DNA of 64,000 nucleotides from Phascolarctobacterium sp. (GTDB lineage Bacteria > Bacillota > Negativicutes > Acidaminococcales > Acidaminococcaceae): contig JAFUKD010000007.1 in NCBI GenBank assembly GCA_017467905.1, forward strand, positions 62,001 to 126,000, given 5' to 3'. Shown in pieces: positions 13,947-23,351 of the stretch (positions are counted from its first letter, which is position 1; the number at the start of each line of letters is the position of its first letter). The notes under the pieces are model-generated. The model ran no database searches, had not been told where the DNA came from, and saw only the letters and a program-made list of their open reading frames with translations. The translations under genes and the position numbers were made by a program.

Positions 13947-13962
13947 TGTTTCACGTGAAACA
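13947..13962. promoter_or_regulatory. parS centromere site (perfect palindrome)
   Basis: TGTTTCACGTGAAACA is an exact match to the bacterial chromosomal parS consensus bound by ParB/Spo0J. Such sites load ParB and condensin for origin segregation, and lie mostly in the origin-proximal part of the chromosome. It stands in a gene-free stretch (13894-14409) that holds this site, a 166-bp palindrome, a promoter and a second parS-like site. Confidence 0.85.
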
Positions 13963-14132
13963 TTTGGCAGAGGGGGACATGGGGTTATAAAAAAATTTTA
14001 GGAAGTAGTTGTGAGGGTTCGTTAGTTACTACATAATTCTAAGTTACTGCATATTTTTTAGAACAAGGAGCAAAACTTACAGTTTTGTTGAACGCATGGC
14101 AGAAGAAAAAAAGAAAAAGAAAAAAAGAAGAT

Positions 14133-14298
14133 TCACTCTTATAGTTGCCATCGAGATTGAAAAAGTGACGTGATTGCAAGAAAAAATTTTAAAAAGGTTT
14201 TAGGAAAAAGTATTCTTGGACAGTGTCACCTAAATTTTTTTACTTGTTTTAGAAAATTTACGTCACTTTTAGGTTGCTCGTGTCAACTATAAGAGTGA
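14133..14298. mobile_element. 166-bp imperfect palindrome, MITE-like
   Basis: The ends are inverted: TCACTCTTATAGTTG at 14133 and CAACTATAAGAGTGA ending at 14298. A further inverted block inside is AAAAGTGACGT against ACGTCACTTTT. The interior is A/T rich and non-coding. I see no clear target-site duplication. It could be a miniature inverted-repeat element, or a structured regulatory region between the two parS-like sites. Confidence 0.5.
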
Positions 14299-14312
14299 GG
14301 GGCAAGATTTTT

Positions 14313-14352
14313 TGGTATAATATACTCAAGAGTAAATGTTTCACGTGACAGT
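14313..14352 (+). promoter_or_regulatory. Promoter -10 and degenerate parS before the knot-family gene
   Basis: TGG-TATAAT (extended -10, 14313-14321) is followed by a parS-like TGTTTCACGTGACAGT at 14337-14352. The latter matches parS at 13 of 16 positions. A transcript from this promoter would carry the parS-like site in its 5' leader. Confidence 0.5.
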
Positions 14353-14409
14353 GACTGAATGCGTTGCAGAACTTATGAAGATGTACCAGAAGTTGGTGGG
14401 GGAAAAGCA

Positions 14410-14727
14410 ATGAGATTTTTTAGAAGTGCTACTTGCTTATTGATGATGTGCTTATTTGTTTTTGGTAGCGTAACTACGGTAGAAGCAGGAGTTACTCATT
14501 GTAAAGGCATTAAGCTGTGCGGAAAGGTTAAGGTTGTAGAAAGCTTTGCTGATTTGAAGGTGCAGGTTGTTAACAACTTCCCTGACCTGAAAGTGAAAAG
14601 GGTTAAGCATTTTCCTAACGATATTGGCGAGTGGCAGTTTGTTACTCATGGTGAGGATTTCACTATCCAATACGTTGACCGCTTTCCGGATTTAAAGATT
14701 AAGTTTGTAGAGCACTTTCCGGGGTGA
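14410..14727 (+). CDS. Secreted repeat protein, probable 7(1) septoil-knot domain
   Basis: The protein has 105 residues from ATG 14410 (GGTGGGGGAAAAGCA upstream; an in-frame ATG at 14359 would only add a tail before the signal). A signal peptide (FFRSATCLLMMCLFVFGSV) is followed by GVTHCKGIKLCGKVKVVESF and repeating short strands KVQVVNNFPDL, KVKRVKHFPND, TIQYVDRFPDL, KIKFVEHFPG. From memory this resembles the Septknot family, predicted to form a 7(1) torus knot; I could not verify that. It is secreted to the periplasm or outer membrane. A truncated paralog lies at 23163. Confidence 0.55.
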   Translation: MRFFRSATCLLMMCLFVFGSVTTVEAGVTHCKGIKLCGKVKVVESFADLKVQVVNNFPDLKVKRVKHFPNDIGEWQFVTHGEDFTIQYVDRFPDLKIKFVEHFPG

Positions 14728-14837: not shown

Positions 14838-14866
14838 TTGTTTTTGGAAGCGGTTTCTGATATAAT
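14838..14866 (+). promoter_or_regulatory. Promoter of the holin-like toxin
   Basis: -35 TTGTTT (14838-14843), 17-bp spacer, -10 TATAAT (14861-14866) with TGA directly before it (extended -10). The predicted start is near 14873, exactly where AGCCTAGCGA begins. Confidence 0.7.
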
Positions 14867-14913
14867 ATAATTAGCCTAGCGAAGCCGGCTTCCTCTGTGA
14901 AGGAGGTGGTACT

Positions 14914-14988
14914 ATGAGCATTTATGAAGCATTGTCTTTGATGATTATGTTTGCAATGTTGGTAGTTACCATTGTCAAAAAACAGTAA
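14914..14988 (+). CDS. Holin-like type I toxin, 24 residues
   Basis: The peptide MSIYEALSLMIMFAMLVVTI plus VKKQ is a single hydrophobic helix with a basic tail. It matches the pattern of Firmicutes putative holin-like toxins (MSxYEALxLMIxF) related in style to Fst/TxpA/BsrG peptides, which damage the membrane. GAAGGAGG lies 8 nt before the ATG. It has its own promoter, and a convergent antisense RNA covers the end of the gene. Confidence 0.75.
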   Translation: MSIYEALSLMIMFAMLVVTIVKKQ

Positions 14989-15074
14989 AAGCCAGCTAAC
15001 GTGAAGTAGCCGGCTTTTCTGTACTCAAAATACCATGAGGAAAGCTCGGCGGTCTCACTCGCTAGGCTTCCTTG
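14976..15074 (-). ncRNA. Putative antisense RNA antitoxin
   Basis: The predicted transcript runs from the promoter at 15081-15109 to the shared terminator, about 100 nt, covering the 3' end of the toxin mRNA. Its 5' end carries AGCCTAGCGA and GCCGAGCTTTCCTC, near-copies of the toxin mRNA 5' end (14873-14895), so the two ends of the locus are inverted repeats. The convergent overlapping layout is like txpA/ratA and bsrG/SR4. Confidence 0.65.
14987..15018. terminator. Bidirectional terminator of the type I TA locus
   Basis: AAAAGCCAGCTA pairs with TAGCCGGCTTTT. It is followed by T-rich sequence on both strands (TTTTCTGT on plus; TTTTACTGTTTTTT on minus). It overlaps the toxin stop codon, so toxin mRNA and antisense RNA share it. 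Confidence 0.75.
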
Positions 15075-15080
15075 TTTATT

Positions 15081-15109
15081 ATTATAAGGCTAATAATAGG
15101 TAAAGTCAA
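15081..15109 (-). promoter_or_regulatory. Promoter of the antisense RNA
   Basis: On the minus strand: TTGACT (15109-15104), 17-bp spacer, TATAAT (15086-15081). This is close to consensus and stronger than the toxin promoter, as expected for an antitoxin RNA. Confidence 0.75.
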
Positions 15110-15112
15110 TTT

Positions 15113-15772
15113 TTACTTTTTGTACGCTGCGGAAGCGAGGATTTCCATTTTAGCAAACTTTTTCGGAGTGCTGCCTAAATCGAATTTTGCAGAAACCTTT
15201 TCGTTAGCAGGTACGGTTACTGCAAAAAGGCTTCTTGCATAAATGATTTCGCCTGCTTCATCGTAGTAAACTACTTGTGCGGTGCAGTTAAGATTGTTAG
15301 CAGTGCTGTTGATGATTGCTACACGCTCGCGGTCATAGTCCATATTGTAAACTACACCGGATTTGTTATCTTCATCAATACCGGGGACAAGCACTGCAAA
15401 TTGAGAGCGTTCTTGTTTTACCAAGGTGTACTTAATTTTTTCAGTATCTTTCTTAGTAGGGTTTATGGGGACGTAAACGCTTTGCTTTGCGCCAAGGGCG
15501 GTGATGGTGTTGTTTTCGATAGCTTCCAGCCAGAAATCGCCTTTGTCGTAGCAATCCGCCTTAAAGTTTACTTGCACAACGGCGTCGCTGTTATTGGTAA
15601 CGAGCACGCCAAAATTGTCAGAGGTAATTTTTAAACCCAAGATTTTTGCAGAGCGAGTCCATTCTACAGGCTTGAGGACGATGTTTTTATCATCCAGTTT
15701 ACCACAGCCGCTCACAGCGCAGATGGTGAGAAGCATTACAAAACTCATAACGAGAGTAAGAATTTTTTTCAT
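15113..15772 (-). CDS. Lipoprotein of unknown function
   Basis: The protein has 219 residues. A signal peptide (KKILTLVMSFVMLLTICAVSGC) ends in a lipobox with lipidated Cys at about 22-23, followed by GKLDDKN and two predicted beta-rich Ig/FxLYD-like halves (VLVTNNSDAVVQVNFKADCYD; VAIINSTANNLNCTAQVVYYD). The pattern suggests an extracytoplasmic beta-sandwich protein; I do not recognise a function. GGGAGGAAC precedes the ATG. It has its own promoter and lies between the toxin locus and the CRISPR locus. Confidence 0.8.
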   Translation of the reverse strand: MKKILTLVMSFVMLLTICAVSGCGKLDDKNIVLKPVEWTRSAKILGLKITSDNFGVLVTNNSDAVVQVNFKADCYDKGDFWLEAIENNTITALGAKQSVYVPINPTKKDTEKIKYTLVKQERSQFAVLVPGIDEDNKSGVVYNMDYDRERVAIINSTANNLNCTAQVVYYDEAGEIIYARSLFAVTVPANEKVSAKFDLGSTPKKFAKMEILASAAYKK

Positions 15773-16091: not shown

Positions 16092-16140
16092 ACAGACAAT
16101 TATAAATTTCAAAATAAATGTTATGAAAGGTTGTATGAAA

Positions 16141-19100
16141 ATGGCTTACGCAATTGGTTTAGATGTTGGTATTGCTTCAGTTGGTTACGCTGTTGTAGCT
16201 TTAGATTATGAAGAAAATCCTTGGGGAATTATTCGCATGGGAGCGCGCATTTTTGATGTTGCAGAAAATCCTAAAGATGGTGCGTCTTTGGCGTTGCCAC
16301 GTAGGGAAGCAAGGGCTGCAAGAAGACGATTGCGCCGTCGCCGTCATCGTATTGAAAGAATAAAGAACTTATTTACAGATTCTAAGCTGCTAACAGCAGA
16401 GCAATTGGAAAAACTTTATGATGGTAAGAAATTAGAAGATATTTACAATTTACGTGTAAGAGCCTTGGGAGAAGCAATGAGCAATGAAGAAATAGCTCGT
16501 ATTTTATTGCATTTAGCACATAGACGTGGATTTAAGTCTAATCGTAAGGCAGAAAAAGCTGATAAAGAAAACGGTTTGCTTTTGACTGCGGTAAGTGAAA
16601 ATGCTAAAAGGATGCAAGAGAATAACTATCGTACTATTGGTGAGATGTTCTTTAAAGATGATAATTTTAAGGAATACAAACGCAACAAAGGTGGAAGTTA
16701 TTTAACTACGGTTGCACGAGAGATGGTTACAGATGAGGCTAAGCAAATTTTCACTGCACAAAGAGAATTTGGAAATAACATTCTGACAGAAGAATTTGAA
16801 CAAAGATATCTAGAAATTTTATTGAGTCAACGTAACTTTGATGAAGGGCCTGGCGGAGAAAGCCCTTATGGCGGTGACCAGATTGAGAAGATGATTGGTT
16901 ATTGTACTTTTGAGCCTGGAGAAAAGCGTTGTGCGAAAGCAAGTTATTCTTTTGAGTACTTTAACCTTTTGCAAAAGGTAAACCATTTACGTTTATTGGT
17001 AGATGGTGAAAAGATAGCATTGGATGACAGTCAAAAGAAAAAGATAATTATGCTTGCTAAGACTAAAGCAGATTTAAAGTATAATCAAATTCGTAAAGAG
17101 CTTGGTTTGGGCGAAAAGGTACTGTTTAATGGTCTTGTTTATAATGGTAATGTTGATGAAGTAGAGAAAAAAGCAAAGTTTAATTATTTGCCTGCTTATC
17201 ATCAAATGCGTAAAGAACTTGATAAAGTTTCTAAAGGACACATAGAAACTTTAGATTTAGTAACTTTAAATGAAATTGGTAGAATCTTATCTGTGTATAA
17301 GAGTGATGCTAAACGAGTTGAAGCATTTAGTAAACTAAATCTTGCTAATGAAGATGTTGAAGCGTTACTTAACATCAATGGTTTAAGAAAGTTTGGTCAT
17401 TTATCCTTAAAGGCTTTGGATAAGATAATTCCATATTTGGAACAAGGTTTGATTTATAATGAAGCTTGTGCTGCTGCTGGCTACGAATTTAGAGGTCATG
17501 TTGGTAATGAGAAAACTTTTCTTTTGCCAGGAAAAACTGATGAAATGGAGAACATTACCAGTCCTGTTGCACGTCGTGCAATCTCGCAAACTATTAAAGT
17601 TATAAATGCTATTATACGTGAGCAGGGAGAAAGTCCTTTATATTTGAATATAGAGCTTGCTCGTGAAATGGCAAAAGATTTTGATGAACGTAAAAAAATA
17701 AAAAAAGAGCAAGACGACAACCAAGCTAAAAATGAAAGGCTTTTAGAAAGAATAAGAACAGAGTTCCATAAACAAAATCCAACAGGATTAGATTTGGTTA
17801 AATTTAAATTGTGGGAAGAACAAGATGGCAGAAGTCCTTATTCTGGTAAGACTATTGAAATTAATAGATTGTTTGAACCTGGTTATGTAGATGTAGACCA
17901 TATTGTTCCCTATAGCATTAGTTTTGACGATACATTAAAGAATAAAGTTTTGGTATTCGCTTCTGAAAATAGGGAAAAAGGAAAGAGCTTACCAATTCAA
18001 TACTTAGCAAGGAAATTTGGACAAGAAGCTGTTGATAACTTTAGGGTACGTGTAAACAACGATGTAAGGAACTACAAAAAGCGTCTTAATCTTTTGAAGG
18101 CAGAGGTAACAGAGGAAGACCGTAATAAGTTTAAGGAACGTAACTTACAAGATACTAAAACTATTTCTCGTTTTATGTATAATTACATTAACGACCATCT
18201 GCTTTTTGCAGAATCTGAAACGGGTAAGAAGAAACGTGTTACTGCTGTTAATGGCGCTATAACTTCTTATTTGCGAAAACGTTGGGGGATTAACAAAGTA
18301 CGTGCAAATGGCGATAAGCATCATGCGGTAGATGCTTTGGTTGTTGCTTGTACTACTGATAAACTTATTAAAGATTTGTCTTATCATTCACAGTACCATG
18401 AGGTTGAATATGACCATGGTGAAAAAGAAAGTTTATTGGTAGATAGAGCGACCGGAGAAATTTTAAAACGATTCCCTTATCCATGGGAAGATTTTAGAGC
18501 AGAACTTATGGCTCGTTTATCAAATGACCCAAGTACTGCGTTAAGAAGATTGCAGTTGTTGTTCTATCAAAATAAAGATTTAAATGATATTAAGCCGATT
18601 TTTGTATCACGTATGCCTCGACGTAAGATTACTGGTGCTGCCCATAAAGCAACTGTTAAGGGAGCTCGTCATATTGAACAAGGAATTGTAGTTTCTAAAA
18701 AGAATTTGACTGACCTTAAATTAAATAAGGATGGTGAAATTGAAAATTACTATGCACCCGAAAGCGATAGACTGCTTTATGAAGCATTAAAAGAGCAGTT
18801 GAAGAAATTTAATGGTAATGCCAAAAAGGCTTTTGAACAGGATTTCTTTAAACCCAAAGCAGACGGTACGCTTGGACCGAAAGTAAAGAAGGTTAAGGTT
18901 TATGAAAAATCCACCTTGAATGTTAGCGTACAGCAAGGAACAGGCGCTGCTGATAATGACAGTATGGTGAGGGTTGATGTTTATAAAGTTGAAGGCGATG
19001 GTTATTACCTTGTACCCATCTATGTTGCTGATACTTTGAGGAAAAAGTTACCTAATAAAGCAATAGTTGCACACAAGCCATATGAAGAATGGATAGAGAT

Positions 19101-19437
19101 GGATACTAGAAATTTTGTATTTTCTTTGTATCCAAATGATTTAGTGAAGTTTGTACACAAAAAAGAAGTAGTTTTCAACAAGGTTAATGATGATAGCACT
19201 TTAATTGATTCTTACCAGACTAAGGAAGAAATTGTGTATTATAAAAAAACAGGTATTGCAAATGCTACCGTTAGTATAATTAATGCTGATAACACTTATG
19301 CAATACCGAGTTTAGGTATAAAAACTTTGTTGTCCTTAGATAAATATCAAGTGGATGTACTTGGTAATTATCACAAGGTTGGAAAGGAAACCTTACAAAC
19401 TTTCAGTAGATATCAACAAACGAAAAAGAAGCCTTAA
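16141..19437 (+). CDS. cas9: CRISPR-associated endonuclease Cas9, type II-C
   Basis: The protein has 1098 residues from ATG 16141 (GAAAGG 10 nt upstream; in-frame ATGs at 16135 and 16123 are alternatives). RuvC-I carries GLDVG with D8. The arginine-rich bridge helix is at 54-78. RuvC-II carries NIELARE with E505. HNH carries DVDHIVPY with D586 and H587 plus N610. RuvC-III carries HHAVDALVVAC with H727 and D731. All catalytic residues are present. Size and sequence resemble the Geobacillus/Neisseria-type compact Cas9s. The C-terminus YQVDVLGNYHKV is typical. It cuts DNA guided by crRNA:tracrRNA and a PAM; the PAM cannot be read here. Confidence 0.97.
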   Translation: MAYAIGLDVGIASVGYAVVALDYEENPWGIIRMGARIFDVAENPKDGASLALPRREARAARRRLRRRRHRIERIKNLFTDSKLLTAEQLEKLYDGKKLEDIYNLRVRALGEAMSNEEIARILLHLAHRRGFKSNRKAEKADKENGLLLTAVSENAKRMQENNYRTIGEMFFKDDNFKEYKRNKGGSYLTTVAREMVTDEAKQIFTAQREFGNNILTEEFEQRYLEILLSQRNFDEGPGGESPYGGDQIEKMIGYCTFEPGEKRCAKASYSFEYFNLLQKVNHLRLLVDGEKIALDDSQKKKIIMLAKTKADLKYNQIRKELGLGEKVLFNGLVYNGNVDEVEKKAKFNYLPAYHQMRKELDKVSKGHIETLDLVTLNEIGRILSVYKSDAKRVEAFSKLNLANEDVEALLNINGLRKFGHLSLKALDKIIPYLEQGLIYNEACAAAGYEFRGHVGNEKTFLLPGKTDEMENITSPVARRAISQTIKVINAIIREQGESPLYLNIELAREMAKDFDERKKIKKEQDDNQAKNERLLERIRTEFHKQNPTGLDLVKFKLWEEQDGRSPYSGKTIEINRLFEPGYVDVDHIVPYSISFDDTLKNKVLVFASENREKGKSLPIQYLARKFGQEAVDNFRVRVNNDVRNYKKRLNLLKAEVTEEDRNKFKERNLQDTKTISRFMYNYINDHLLFAESETGKKKRVTAVNGAITSYLRKRWGINKVRANGDKHHAVDALVVACTTDKLIKDLSYHSQYHEVEYDHGEKESLLVDRATGEILKRFPYPWEDFRAELMARLSNDPSTALRRLQLLFYQNKDLNDIKPIFVSRMPRRKITGAAHKATVKGARHIEQGIVVSKKNLTDLKLNKDGEIENYYAPESDRLLYEALKEQLKKFNGNAKKAFEQDFFKPKADGTLGPKVKKVKVYEKSTLNVSVQQGTGAADNDSMVRVDVYKVEGDGYYLVPIYVADTLRKKLPNKAIVAHKPYEEWIEMDTRNFVFSLYPNDLVKFVHKKEVVFNKVNDDSTLIDSYQTKEEIVYYKKTGIANATVSIINADNTYAIPSLGIKTLLSLDKYQVDVLGNYHKVGKETLQTFSRYQQTKKKP

Positions 19438-19463
19438 TTTTGTTCCGCAAAGGAGTGGTGAAG

Positions 19464-20366
19464 ATGGCTTATCGTAATCTACTTATTGAGAGTTGTGCCA
19501 ATTTAAGTTGTAGGCAAGAGCAGCTAATTGTCACTACGGATTGCAAACATTCCATACCGATGGAGGATATCAATTCCATTGTATTAGAGAACAATCAAAG
19601 TACGATTACGATAGCTGCACTTTCAAGGCTTGCACAAAATGGCGTGAGTGTTTTTGTATGTGATGAAAAGCATTTGCCTTGCGCTGTTTTGGAAAGTTTT
19701 GCTCAACATTCACGTAATGTAGGGGTAATGCGTTTGCAGGAAAAGTTATCTTTACCACAACAAAAGCGTTTGTGGAAACAAGTAATTCAAGCAAAAATAA
19801 ATAATCAAGCGGAATGCTTGATGCTTTGTGGCAAAGAAAAAGAATCCACTTATCTAGGTGGTTTAGCTAAAACCGTAGTAAGTGGTGATGCAAAGAATAT
19901 AGAAGCTGTAGCTGCGAATTACTATTTTAAAAATTTATTTGGAGTAGGGTTTTCGCGGGGTGATGACGCTGATGGAAGAAATAGTGCATTAAATTATGGC
20001 TACGCTATTTTAAGAGGTCATATTGCACGATTACTTACCGGTTATGGCTTCTTACCCATGCGTGGTATTCATCATCATAGTGAACAAAATAGTTTTAATC
20101 TTGCTGATGACTTCATAGAACCCTTTAGACCTGTTGTTGATTTATATGTTGCTCAAAATGTAAGTAAACAAGATTTACTTGCACCTATGGTAAAACGAGG
20201 ACTTTATAATTTACTAAATGCGGATATGCTTAGTGGCGGTCAAAGACATAGTGTTGCCTATTCAGCTGAAAGGTTGGTACAAAGCTTTATGCGTTGTTGC
20301 CAGCAAACTACAAAAGAGTTAATGCCACCTAAGTTGGTTGCATTAAAACAACATACTTATGAATAA
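19464..20366 (+). CDS. cas1: CRISPR-associated integrase Cas1, type II
   Basis: The protein has 300 residues from ATG 19464, with AGGAG 8 nt upstream. Type II Cas1 signatures are present: NSIVLENNQSTITIAALSRL, E147 in NIEAVAANYYF, and the metal-site His/Asp in GIHHHSEQNSFNLADDFIEPFRP. With Cas2 it integrates new spacers. It lies 26 bp after cas9 and overlaps cas2 by 8 bp. No csn2 or cas4 is present, which defines subtype II-C. Confidence 0.96.
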   Translation: MAYRNLLIESCANLSCRQEQLIVTTDCKHSIPMEDINSIVLENNQSTITIAALSRLAQNGVSVFVCDEKHLPCAVLESFAQHSRNVGVMRLQEKLSLPQQKRLWKQVIQAKINNQAECLMLCGKEKESTYLGGLAKTVVSGDAKNIEAVAANYYFKNLFGVGFSRGDDADGRNSALNYGYAILRGHIARLLTGYGFLPMRGIHHHSEQNSFNLADDFIEPFRPVVDLYVAQNVSKQDLLAPMVKRGLYNLLNADMLSGGQRHSVAYSAERLVQSFMRCCQQTTKELMPPKLVALKQHTYE

Positions 20367-20679
20367 GTTTATGAGAATGCTTGTATTTTTTGACATACCG
20401 GTAAAGACCGCCAAACAAAGAAGAATTGCAACAGGGTTTAGAAACTTTTTGTTAAAAGATGGATATCATATGGTGCAGTATTCAGTTTACGCAAGAGTGT
20501 GTAATGGATTAGATGCTGTTGCCAAACATAAGGCAAGATTATATTCGTATTTGCCTGATAATGGCTCTGTAAGATTGTTGGTTATAACAGAGAAGCAATA
20601 CGAAACTATTGAAATTCTGGTGGGAAACTATAGTGAAGATGATACACCATTTGTTTGTGAGCAGCTTTCTATTTTCTAA
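20359..20679 (+). CDS. cas2: CRISPR-associated protein Cas2
   Basis: This 106-residue ferredoxin-like protein has LVFFDIPVKTAKQRRIATGFRNFLLKDGYHMVQYSVYAR, the typical Cas2 N-terminus with the conserved Asp. It is the structural partner of Cas1 in spacer acquisition. It ends 99 bp before the first repeat. Confidence 0.95.
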   Translation: MNKFMRMLVFFDIPVKTAKQRRIATGFRNFLLKDGYHMVQYSVYARVCNGLDAVAKHKARLYSYLPDNGSVRLLVITEKQYETIEILVGNYSEDDTPFVCEQLSIF

Positions 20680-20731
20680 AAAAAGAACATTGAACGGTAT
20701 ATTTGTGTTTAATAAATTTGCTTTTTTAAAA

Positions 20732-20770
20732 CAGAAACTCCCAGGAACATAGTGTTTCTGGGAGTTTCTG
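20732..20770. terminator. 13-bp perfect hairpin between cas2 and the array
   Basis: CAGAAACTCCCAG and CTGGGAGTTTCTG form a perfect stem with a 13-nt loop. It ends 8 bp before the first repeat. It can end cas transcription (plus strand). On the minus strand it is followed by TTTTAAAAAAG and can end the crRNA transcripts. Confidence 0.65.
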
Positions 20771-20778
20771 CGTTCCCT

Positions 20779-21870
20779 GTTATACCATACCAAGAAAAAT
20801 TAGGGAACTACAACGCGTAGCTGAAAACAAGGTATGCTTCATCCGTTATACCATACCAAGAAAAATTAGGGAACTACAACCCCGACTAATTGTTTTTTAG
20901 ATGGATTTAAGTTATACCATACCAAGAAAAATTAGGGAACTACAACTTGCACTCTGCTCTGAACGCAGGGCGGTTAGTTATACCATACCAAGAAAAATTA
21001 GGGAACTACAACCTTGTTTCTTCACTGGTAAAGGAAGGGCTGGTTATACCATACCAAGAAAAATTAGGGAACTACAACTCTAAAGGTGGCTTTACTAAGT
21101 CCTTTGTAGTTATACCATACCAAGAAAAATTAGGGAACTACAACATCAGACCTTTTGAAGGAGTACCTTTTTTGGTTATACCATACCAAGAAAAATTAGG
21201 GAACTACAACTCGTAGACCAGACCACTGGCGAAACCTTGGGTTATACCATACCAAGAAAAATTAGGGAACTACAACAGAATAGATGATGTATTGGAAACG
21301 TTCCGTGTTATACCATACCAAGAAAAATTAGGGAACTACAACTTAGCGCCTTTAACCATGTTTGACCAGCCTGTTATACCATACCAAGAAAAATTAGGGA
21401 ACTACAACGGGTGTATGGTAACGCTTGGGTGTCTGGTAGTTATACCATACCAAGAAAAATTAGGGAACTACAACTGTAACCAACACTTCTTATGACGGCA
21501 ATGCGTTATACCATACCAAGAAAAATTAGGGAACTACAACTTCTATGTCAACGGGCGCAAAGCCTACGGGGTTATACCATACCAAGAAAAATTAGGGAAC
21601 TACAACTTTACGCAGCGTCTGAAGAACGATTCACTAGTTATACCATACCAAGAAAAATTAGGGAACTACAACACCCTGTAATGGTAGATGAGATTTTACC
21701 TGGTTATACCATACCAAGAAAAATTAGGGAACTACAACGTAATATCATTGCCACTCAAAAACGGCTTTGTTATACCATACCAAGAAAAATTAGGGAACTA
21801 CAACCCAACGGAACAAGCCCCCACCGAAAAGCAAGTTATACCATACCAAGAAAAATTAGGAAATAATCAT
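20779..21870 (-). CRISPR. CRISPR array, 17 repeats of 36 bp and 16 spacers of 30 bp
   Basis: Repeats start every 66 bp from 20779 to 21835. The first 16 appear identical; the seventeenth (21835-21870) is degenerate over its last 11 bases. All spacers are exactly 30 bp. On the crRNA strand (minus) the repeat begins GTTGTAGTTCCC, like Neisseria and Campylobacter II-C repeats, and ends TATGGTATAAC, an extended -10 (TGG-TATAAC). The tracrRNA anti-repeat fixes this orientation. Thus the array is transcribed opposite to the cas genes, probably from promoters inside the repeats. Confidence 0.97.
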
Positions 21871-21885
21871 AAAGTAGTTCACTTT

Positions 21886-21922
21886 GATTATATCATATAG
21901 AAAAATTTTATGGAACTCTAAG
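21886..21922 (-). repeat. Fossil CRISPR repeat with a consensus -10
   Basis: ATTATATCATAT-AGAAAAATT-TGGAACT aligns with the repeat with a 2-bp deletion and scattered changes (roughly 27 matching positions). It lies 15 bp beyond the degenerate repeat. On the minus strand its end reads TATGATATAATC, a full TGATATAAT extended -10, so it could serve as the array's outside promoter. Confidence 0.5.
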
Positions 21923-22002: not shown

Positions 22003-23025
22003 TTTGCAGAAGAAGCTAAGGCAAAGCTTGAGAGCCTGCGTTACGAATTGGAACTTTTAGATAAAGTATAAGCCAAGCAGATAGACACGTAACAATACGG
22101 CTTCTTGGCAACAAGAAATACACAGCATTGGATTACATGAAAGCTCACCCGGTAGGGTTTGGCGGCGAAGTAGAGCGTGGAGCGTTGGGGCAACCCGTTA
22201 CCAATCCGGAAATTACTTTGGATACCAAGGTTAAGGTAGTTGAAACCAAAAGGATGTTTAAAGACCAAGATTGGTGGGACATTAGAAATGATTTTATAAA
22301 CAAATATCCCGATGTTGTTAACAGATAAGAATGGGAAACATATACCCATAATCAATACTTTGAGTAAAGCCAAAATTGTTTTAAGCAAAGATAGCATAAA
22401 GCATGTACTTTCTGACGTAACCAGTAGCACGAAAGAAGATTCAAGCATTGGTGAATTGCGCAGGGATGTTTACCATTATGAACTCGTGCCAGTTTTGCGT
22501 GAATTGATACAAAATGGTGTCTTGATAGAAGAACATGAAGATAAACACAAGAAAGATAGGAGGGTATATAGATTATTCTGTCCTGTAGAGTTTGATGACG
22601 GTAGCTTTTTTGTAGTCAAGCTAACCATTAAAAAACAAAAAAACAATTATTTGCTTGATGATGACAGCTTTACAGATTTGCGGATATACGATGTGCAACG
22701 CATAAAAAAAGAACCCGTACAACGACCTCAAAGTTCCGGCGAACCGGGGTCCCATGAGGGTAGTCCTACGAGTCTTTCTGGATTAAGTATAGCAGATATA
22801 CTTAAGGATGTCAAAGACAACAACGGAATTCCGTATATTGGTGAAGATGGCAAGCTCAATGTTAATTTTGTAGAAAACACCAACACTTTCAATCAATCTG
22901 CTTGGCACGGAACGCCGCATAACTTTGAAGCTTTTGACTTAGGGGCAATCGGAACTGGCGAAGGCAATCAAGTACATGGCTAGGGTTTGTATAGTGCTAA
23001 AAATAGAAAGATTGCACAAAATTAA
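22003..23025 (+). pseudogene. Decayed phage polyvalent-protein gene (ART-PolyVal-like domain)
   Basis: Fragments in shifting frames are seen. 22128-22328 carries KVVETKRMFKDQDWWDIRND. At about 22320 the frame shifts to DKNGKHIPIINTLSKAKIVL, which continues to 22980. The end SAWHGTPHNFEAFDLGAIGT then GEGNQVHG is the ADP-ribosyltransferase-like domain of phage polyvalent proteins. There a TAG (22981) stands where the family has Trp (HGWGLY), followed by GLYSAKNRK. Two or more disabling changes show it is dead. It is probably a prophage or plasmid remnant. Confidence 0.7.
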
Positions 23026-23162
23026 AGAGAAAAACTTTTGGCGAAATCCATTAACGACAGAACAATAGCGAACAATGGTTGATCAAAACAAAGAGCCAAA
23101 TATAGTACTACATTGGATATTTTTAACTAAAATGTTACGTAAGGAGTCGCTATTGAACGGAA

Positions 23163-23351
23163 GTGGTTGTGCGGTGCAGTTTATGCTGCCATACCTTCAC
23201 ATTAAATTTAGTAACAACTTTAAGTTTATTATTAGCTATCATTTTCAGCGTTCCAATTTACCGCGAGGTAGGTGTTACCCATTGTAAAGGTATCAAGTTG
23301 TGTGGAAAGATTAGAGTAAAATTTGACTTTCCCTTTTGGAATGATTTATAA
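23163..23351 (+). pseudogene. Truncated paralog of the knot-family secreted protein
   Basis: A hydrophobic segment (LVTTLSLLLAIIFSVPIY) is followed by VGVTHCKGIKLCGKIRVK, nearly the same as the gene at 14410, then stops after FDFPFWNDL. The repeated strands are missing. The only in-frame start (GTG 23163) lies 16 nt from the AAGGAG at 23141, too far. So it is probably a remnant, although a 62-residue product cannot be excluded. Confidence 0.55.

Follow-up and report, generated by a model that had tools for sequence, protein, structure and literature searches.

A predicted exported protein of Phascolarctobacterium is a relative of the knotted Ureaplasma protein Q9PR55, in a widespread family with self-matching loops

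The window, a 64,000-nucleotide stretch of a Phascolarctobacterium contig, carries an intact gene for a 105-residue protein, running from ATG to TGA at exactly the coordinates given in an earlier preliminary description of this DNA (Table 1). An alternative in-frame ATG upstream, at 14359, would yield 122 residues, but the start at 14410 is the better fit to the ribosome-binding site and signal peptide. Read from the sequence, the N-terminus MRFFRSATCLLMMCLFVFGSVTTVEA followed by GVTHC resembles a typical signal peptide with a predicted VEA cleavage site, and the CKGIKLCGK motif lies beyond it, both as first described. That description also reported about five short repeated strands; the strands and the xxFPD-type loops between them are present, but AlphaFold2 modelling puts their number at six. 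A chance reading frame or chance repeat was ruled out, as the genus's other three genomes carry intact orthologs and so do 37 of the 100 relatives searched.

Table 1. Features of the knot-family gene, its product and its surroundings, in window coordinates.
Feature	Coordinates	Strand	Basis
parS site, exact TGTTTCACGTGAAACA	13947..13962		sequence match
Short repeated element, looks MITE-type	14100..14320		repeat copies in same genome
Terminal inverted repeats of element, 18 bp, 94% complementary	14133..14150 / 14281..14298		sequence
Second parS site, 3 mismatches	14337..14352		sequence match
Shine-Dalgarno-like GGTGGGGG	14395..14402	+	read from sequence
CDS, predicted exported septoil-knot-like protein, 105 aa	14410..14727	+	ORF list, ortholog and PDB sequence searches
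Predicted signal peptide, residues 1-26, predicted cleavage VEA/GVTHC	14410..14487	+	read from sequence; most relatives have hydrophobic N-termini
Mature domain, predicted knotted fold, 79 aa	14488..14724	+	AlphaFold2 pLDDT 92.3, pTM 0.78; Q9PR55 match
CKGIKLCGK motif, N-terminal cysteine region	14500..14526	+	sequence
Strand 1, mature 12-16	14521..14535	+	AlphaFold2 model
Strand 2, mature 23-27	14554..14568	+	AlphaFold2 model
Strand 3, mature 34-38	14587..14601	+	AlphaFold2 model
Long loop 3-4, mature 39-47, VKHFPNDIG, last residue the conserved G of GEW	14602..14628	+	family alignment
Strand 4, mature 48-51, EWQF	14629..14640	+	AlphaFold2 model
Strand 5, mature 58-62	14659..14673	+	AlphaFold2 model
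Strand 6, mature 69-74	14692..14709	+	AlphaFold2 model
Probable type I toxin-antitoxin locus	14856..15167	+	Pfam Hol_Tox match
Cas9, cas1/cas2-like frames	16123..21900		Pfam HNH_4, RuvC_III
Remnant of large phage-type gene (NQSAWHGTPHNFEAFDLGAIGTGEGNQ)	22900..23330		sequence
Truncated second copy: signal-peptide-like N-terminus and GVTHCKGIKLCGKIRV, then divergence and stop	23214..23330	+	E 2.9e-7, 49% identity over query 8-46

Both neighbours named in the preliminary description, parS and a toxin locus, are present beside the gene. An exact parS site and a second, imperfect one lie upstream, and downstream a 24-residue holin-like peptide (MSIYEALSLMIMFAMLVVTIVKKQ; Pfam Hol_Tox, E 2.2e-9) falls within a sub-threshold BsrG match (E 6.7e-4), an arrangement that probably represents a type I toxin-antitoxin locus. 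It is the window copy that has parS and the toxin gene beside it; a search for a recurring gene neighbour among cellular relatives of different phyla found none. Between parS and the knot gene is the MITE-like element, with full or partial copies on four contigs of the same genome (C2, C15, C20 and C31). The stretch from 13985 to 14415 differs in close relatives, with two additional small genes in one (L001) and an additional 928-residue gene in another (L002), suggesting an insertion hot spot. L001, from a Phascolarctobacterium metagenome-assembled genome (MAG), is the closest locus elsewhere: it is 96% identical, and the TctC neighbour and the following region are kept at 89-92% DNA identity, which places the window in that genus or very close to it. 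Further downstream lie the Cas9 region, followed by a CRISPR-like repeat array that translates as VIPYQEKLGNYN, and the phage-gene remnant, with the truncated second copy a few hundred bases beyond it.

The window protein is a clear relative of UU089.1 (Q9PR55) of Ureaplasma urealyticum, a solved 7_1 knot and, to our knowledge, the most complex protein knot known. The septoil-knot link first proposed is borne out in substance. Searched with phmmer against all PDB sequences, the protein matched Q9PR55 (8IWA, 8IWB, 8IWC, 8JRM and 8W68) at E 5e-8, and a profile of 51 family members matched it at E 1.6e-14 over residues 26-84. This span coincides with the published 7_1 knotted core, residues 27-83 (Brems et al., PMC9278004), of a structure later confirmed by crystallography (PMC13352647). 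The core scored 56.8 bits, compared with a maximum of 15.0 bits for 2000 shuffles of the same segment. SFPDLKV-type repeats are common to both proteins, as is a long loop joining strands 3 and 4, whereas the signal peptide, CKGIKLCGK and the GEW motif are features of the window copy.

Structure modelling corroborated the kinship. The mature protein was modelled with high confidence as six strands, and a Foldseek search of the PDB with this model returned four matches at E <= 0.001, all to Q9PR55 with probability 1.00. A search of BFVD gave a single weak match (A0A516LIK4, TM 0.45-0.59, E 0.38). How well the model superposes on Q9PR55 depends on the aligner. VIA-align paired model 3-74 with chain 15-89, 54 residues at 2.0 A, at a Z of 6.2, a value around 6 being below what the tool's own notes deem safe as sole evidence. 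Foldseek superposed the model poorly on the crystal structures (10.2 A, TM 0.36) and better on the NMR model (3.6 A, TM 0.56). The poor fit may reflect a repeat-shifted alignment or a genuine difference in winding; topology cannot be read from these figures because the repeats permit a shift by one unit at nearly equal identity.

The knot that the window protein would form is either 7_1, as in Q9PR55, or a simpler 5_1, and we give the simpler form a chance not far short of even. Brems et al. assigned 7_1 to Q9PR55 yet predicted 5_1 for P73136, a Synechocystis homologue that shares 48% identity with it (PMC9278004). A cyanobacterial relative in our set (L014), probably P73136-like, shares the predicted export signal, six-strand layout and GEW motif with the window protein; the comparison of the window protein with P73136 runs through this relative. 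The bad Foldseek superposition on the crystals also favours 5_1, while the profile alignment spans the entire 7_1 core and VIA-align pairs the two chain ends as expected (residue 3 with 15, residue 74 with 89). AlphaFold itself is reported to be able to disregard topological barriers (PMC10672856). That the protein is instead a plain unknotted beta-solenoid with a coincidentally similar motif is hardly credible. Its short, regular strand-turn repeats would suit such a fold, and repeats can inflate sequence scores, but homology is significant over the full knotted core under a shuffle control and no solenoid is prominent among the fold matches. We rejected this explanation.

The Pfam family first proposed for the protein proved to be a relative rather than its own family. 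PF19647, called Septknot in the preliminary description, is DUF6150 in the Pfam release searched, with a gathering cut-off of 27 bits. In the HMM search suggested there, PF19647 matched neither the window protein at E <= 10 nor any of the 51 family members (the window protein and 50 relatives) at E <= 1, nor the Q9PR55 core, and it found nothing in the window's own genome or in four genomes with family relatives. The model itself works: in one sample of 99 genomes from the order Bacteroidales it gave matches in 33.

DUF6150 is probably a sister of the window family. Like the window family, it has six strands in the same order and a GxW motif at strand 4, together with a predicted export signal and loop self-matching. 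A modelled member (pLDDT 96.5) found Q9PR55 as its best PDB match (E 4.9e-3), with 60 residues at 2.0 A by VIA-align (Z 6.5). The profile link is weak to moderate: hhalign gave probability 62 and E 7e-5, and one trimmed setting was weaker (probability 6, E 0.007). The families differ in repeat period, 13 residues with YESQAD-type repeats in DUF6150 against 11, and in their loops, xxxQAD-type against xxFPD. We read the shared layout and Q9PR55 fold match, combined with the failure of the HMM to match, as marking what is probably a sister rather than the exact family.

The window family is widespread among bacteria and mostly carries predicted export signals. Each of the four genomes searched in the genus, the window's own included, carries an ortholog, as do 37 of 100 relatives, representing 11 of 49 genera. 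One scan of species genomes recovered 28 relatives, spread over Negativicutes, Bacteroidales and other Bacteroidota, Ignavibacteria, Myxococcales and Nannocystaceae, a cyanobacterium, Desulfovibrio, Marinicaulis and Marinicella; plasmid records added Burkholderia and Leptospira, for at least nine bacterial groups. Outside Negativicutes the family is uncommon, present in 9 of 247 genomes from the phylum to which a Bacteroidales relative belongs and in 11 of 140 from that of a myxobacterial one. By a simple hydropathy rule, 60 of 67 relatives have an N-terminus of the hydrophobic, export type. The mature consensus, G(I/F)KLxGKVKVVxxFPDLKVQVVxxFPDLKVKxVxxFPDxxGEWQFVxxFPDFxIQFVxxFPDIKIxFVxxFPG, is conserved throughout. 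An NCBIfam search gave no match.

Two cysteines are gained and lost together in the family. Of 67 relatives below 90% identity, 31 carried both the N-terminal cysteine and one ahead of the GEW motif, 33 carried neither, and only 3 were discordant. The pattern points to a disulfide that would tie the N-terminus to loop 3-4, where the co-varying cysteine sits in other phyla. In the window protein, as in other Negativicutes, the second cysteine is missing, and the window copy is among the discordant ones.

The loops of a given protein tend to match each other. Across 41 members sharing less than 75% identity, two loops of one protein had the same second residue in 67% of comparisons, against 28% when loops were shuffled between proteins position by position. 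None of 2000 shuffles reached the observed value, giving a z of 27, which is not a probability because this shuffling leaves relatedness in place. Signatures vary by protein (DAFPD, DTFPD, TIAPD, DHFPD, DYGED, NSFPD), and several distinct signatures show that loops have been homogenised repeatedly. The window copy is one of those with the least homogenised loops (ESFAD, NNFPD, KHFPN, THGED, DRFPD, EHFPG). DUF6150 loops behave likewise, with 81% identity at three positions against 33% (z 32).

The family also occurs in phages. The window protein matched the HMM of the virus protein family phrog_6462 at E 1.2e-28, covering almost the whole profile, and a Leptospira phage-type copy did so at 1e-48, making this the same family; the PHROG entry gives neither function nor fold. 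IMG/VR contained 23 loci with relatives, and a tblastn search of a phage collection returned no family match. Some phage copies (L084-L086) adjoin a minor tail gene, and two (L077 and L081) have no signal peptide.

How the loops came to match, and what the gene does in phages, each admit a second reading. Recent duplication or gene conversion of repeats, rather than selection, is an unlikely source of the matching. Codons at matched residues agree slightly more often than local usage predicts (0.51 against 0.47 in the window family, 0.62 against 0.53 in DUF6150), agreement is clearly above usage in a few genes (L135, at 0.84 against 0.45, and L138), and one copy (L028) has an internal deletion between repeats, all of which speaks for such copying. 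Most genes with identical loop residues nevertheless use different synonymous codons for them (for example L098, L058 and L125). Because synonymous codons agree so little beyond local usage, the data suggest that matching stems mostly, though not entirely, from protein-level selection. That bacteria captured a structural baseplate part from phages is a still less probable reading. In Leptospira elements, an annotated L. weilii plasmid among them, the gene sits within the tail module and is co-directional with the genes on either side of it, a small tail-module gene (phrog_5564) and, directly after it, baseplate J; in other phages it lies between baseplate hub genes. Yet in two loci (L079 and L083) it is on the strand opposite to the flanking hub genes, in another (L082) it is next to a spanin and a moron-class gene, most copies carry signal peptides, and phage neighbours are absent around most cellular copies. 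The opposite strand, the signal peptides and the scatter of positions suggest that phage copies are cargo (morons) rather than structural parts.

The window protein is a genuine, correctly recognised member of the Q9PR55 protein-knot family, and as an overall account we consider it highly probable that it is an intact, exported one. Removal of the signal peptide would leave 79 residues in six short beta-strands joined by xxFPD-type turns, the chain wound round itself as a torus-type knot by homology with Q9PR55 (7_1) or P73136 (5_1). The six loops would be under selection to match each other, either packed together or forming one repeated surface. Tentatively, the six turns may be selected for the same residues within a chain and for different ones between species, because they would meet as a ring in the torus knot, making a multivalent scaffold, partly spread by phages as cargo, whose surface changes as a unit. 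The weakest step concerns function: a role as a very stable accessory module outside the cytoplasm, binding a partner through its loops and moved between bacteria partly as phage cargo, is doubtful.

Several points reach beyond the preliminary description: the absence of the family from the Pfam release searched, its identity with phrog_6462, its probable sister DUF6150, the cysteine pair and the matched loops. We found no prior statement of them in a partial coverage of the literature. A wide knot family with these links, most of its members predicted to be exported, offers tractable homologues, and its self-matching loops and co-varying cysteines supply testable hypotheses on why the knot is kept and how it folds.

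Individual relatives depart from the single intact domain. Selenomonas ruminantium MAGs hold a frameshifted copy (L026:4959-5299) and an internally deleted one in which strand 2 is fused to the C-terminal end (L028:4971-5162), and a Bacteroidales gene of 214 codons (L128; genome G103, contig C325) encodes two tandem knot domains in one open frame.
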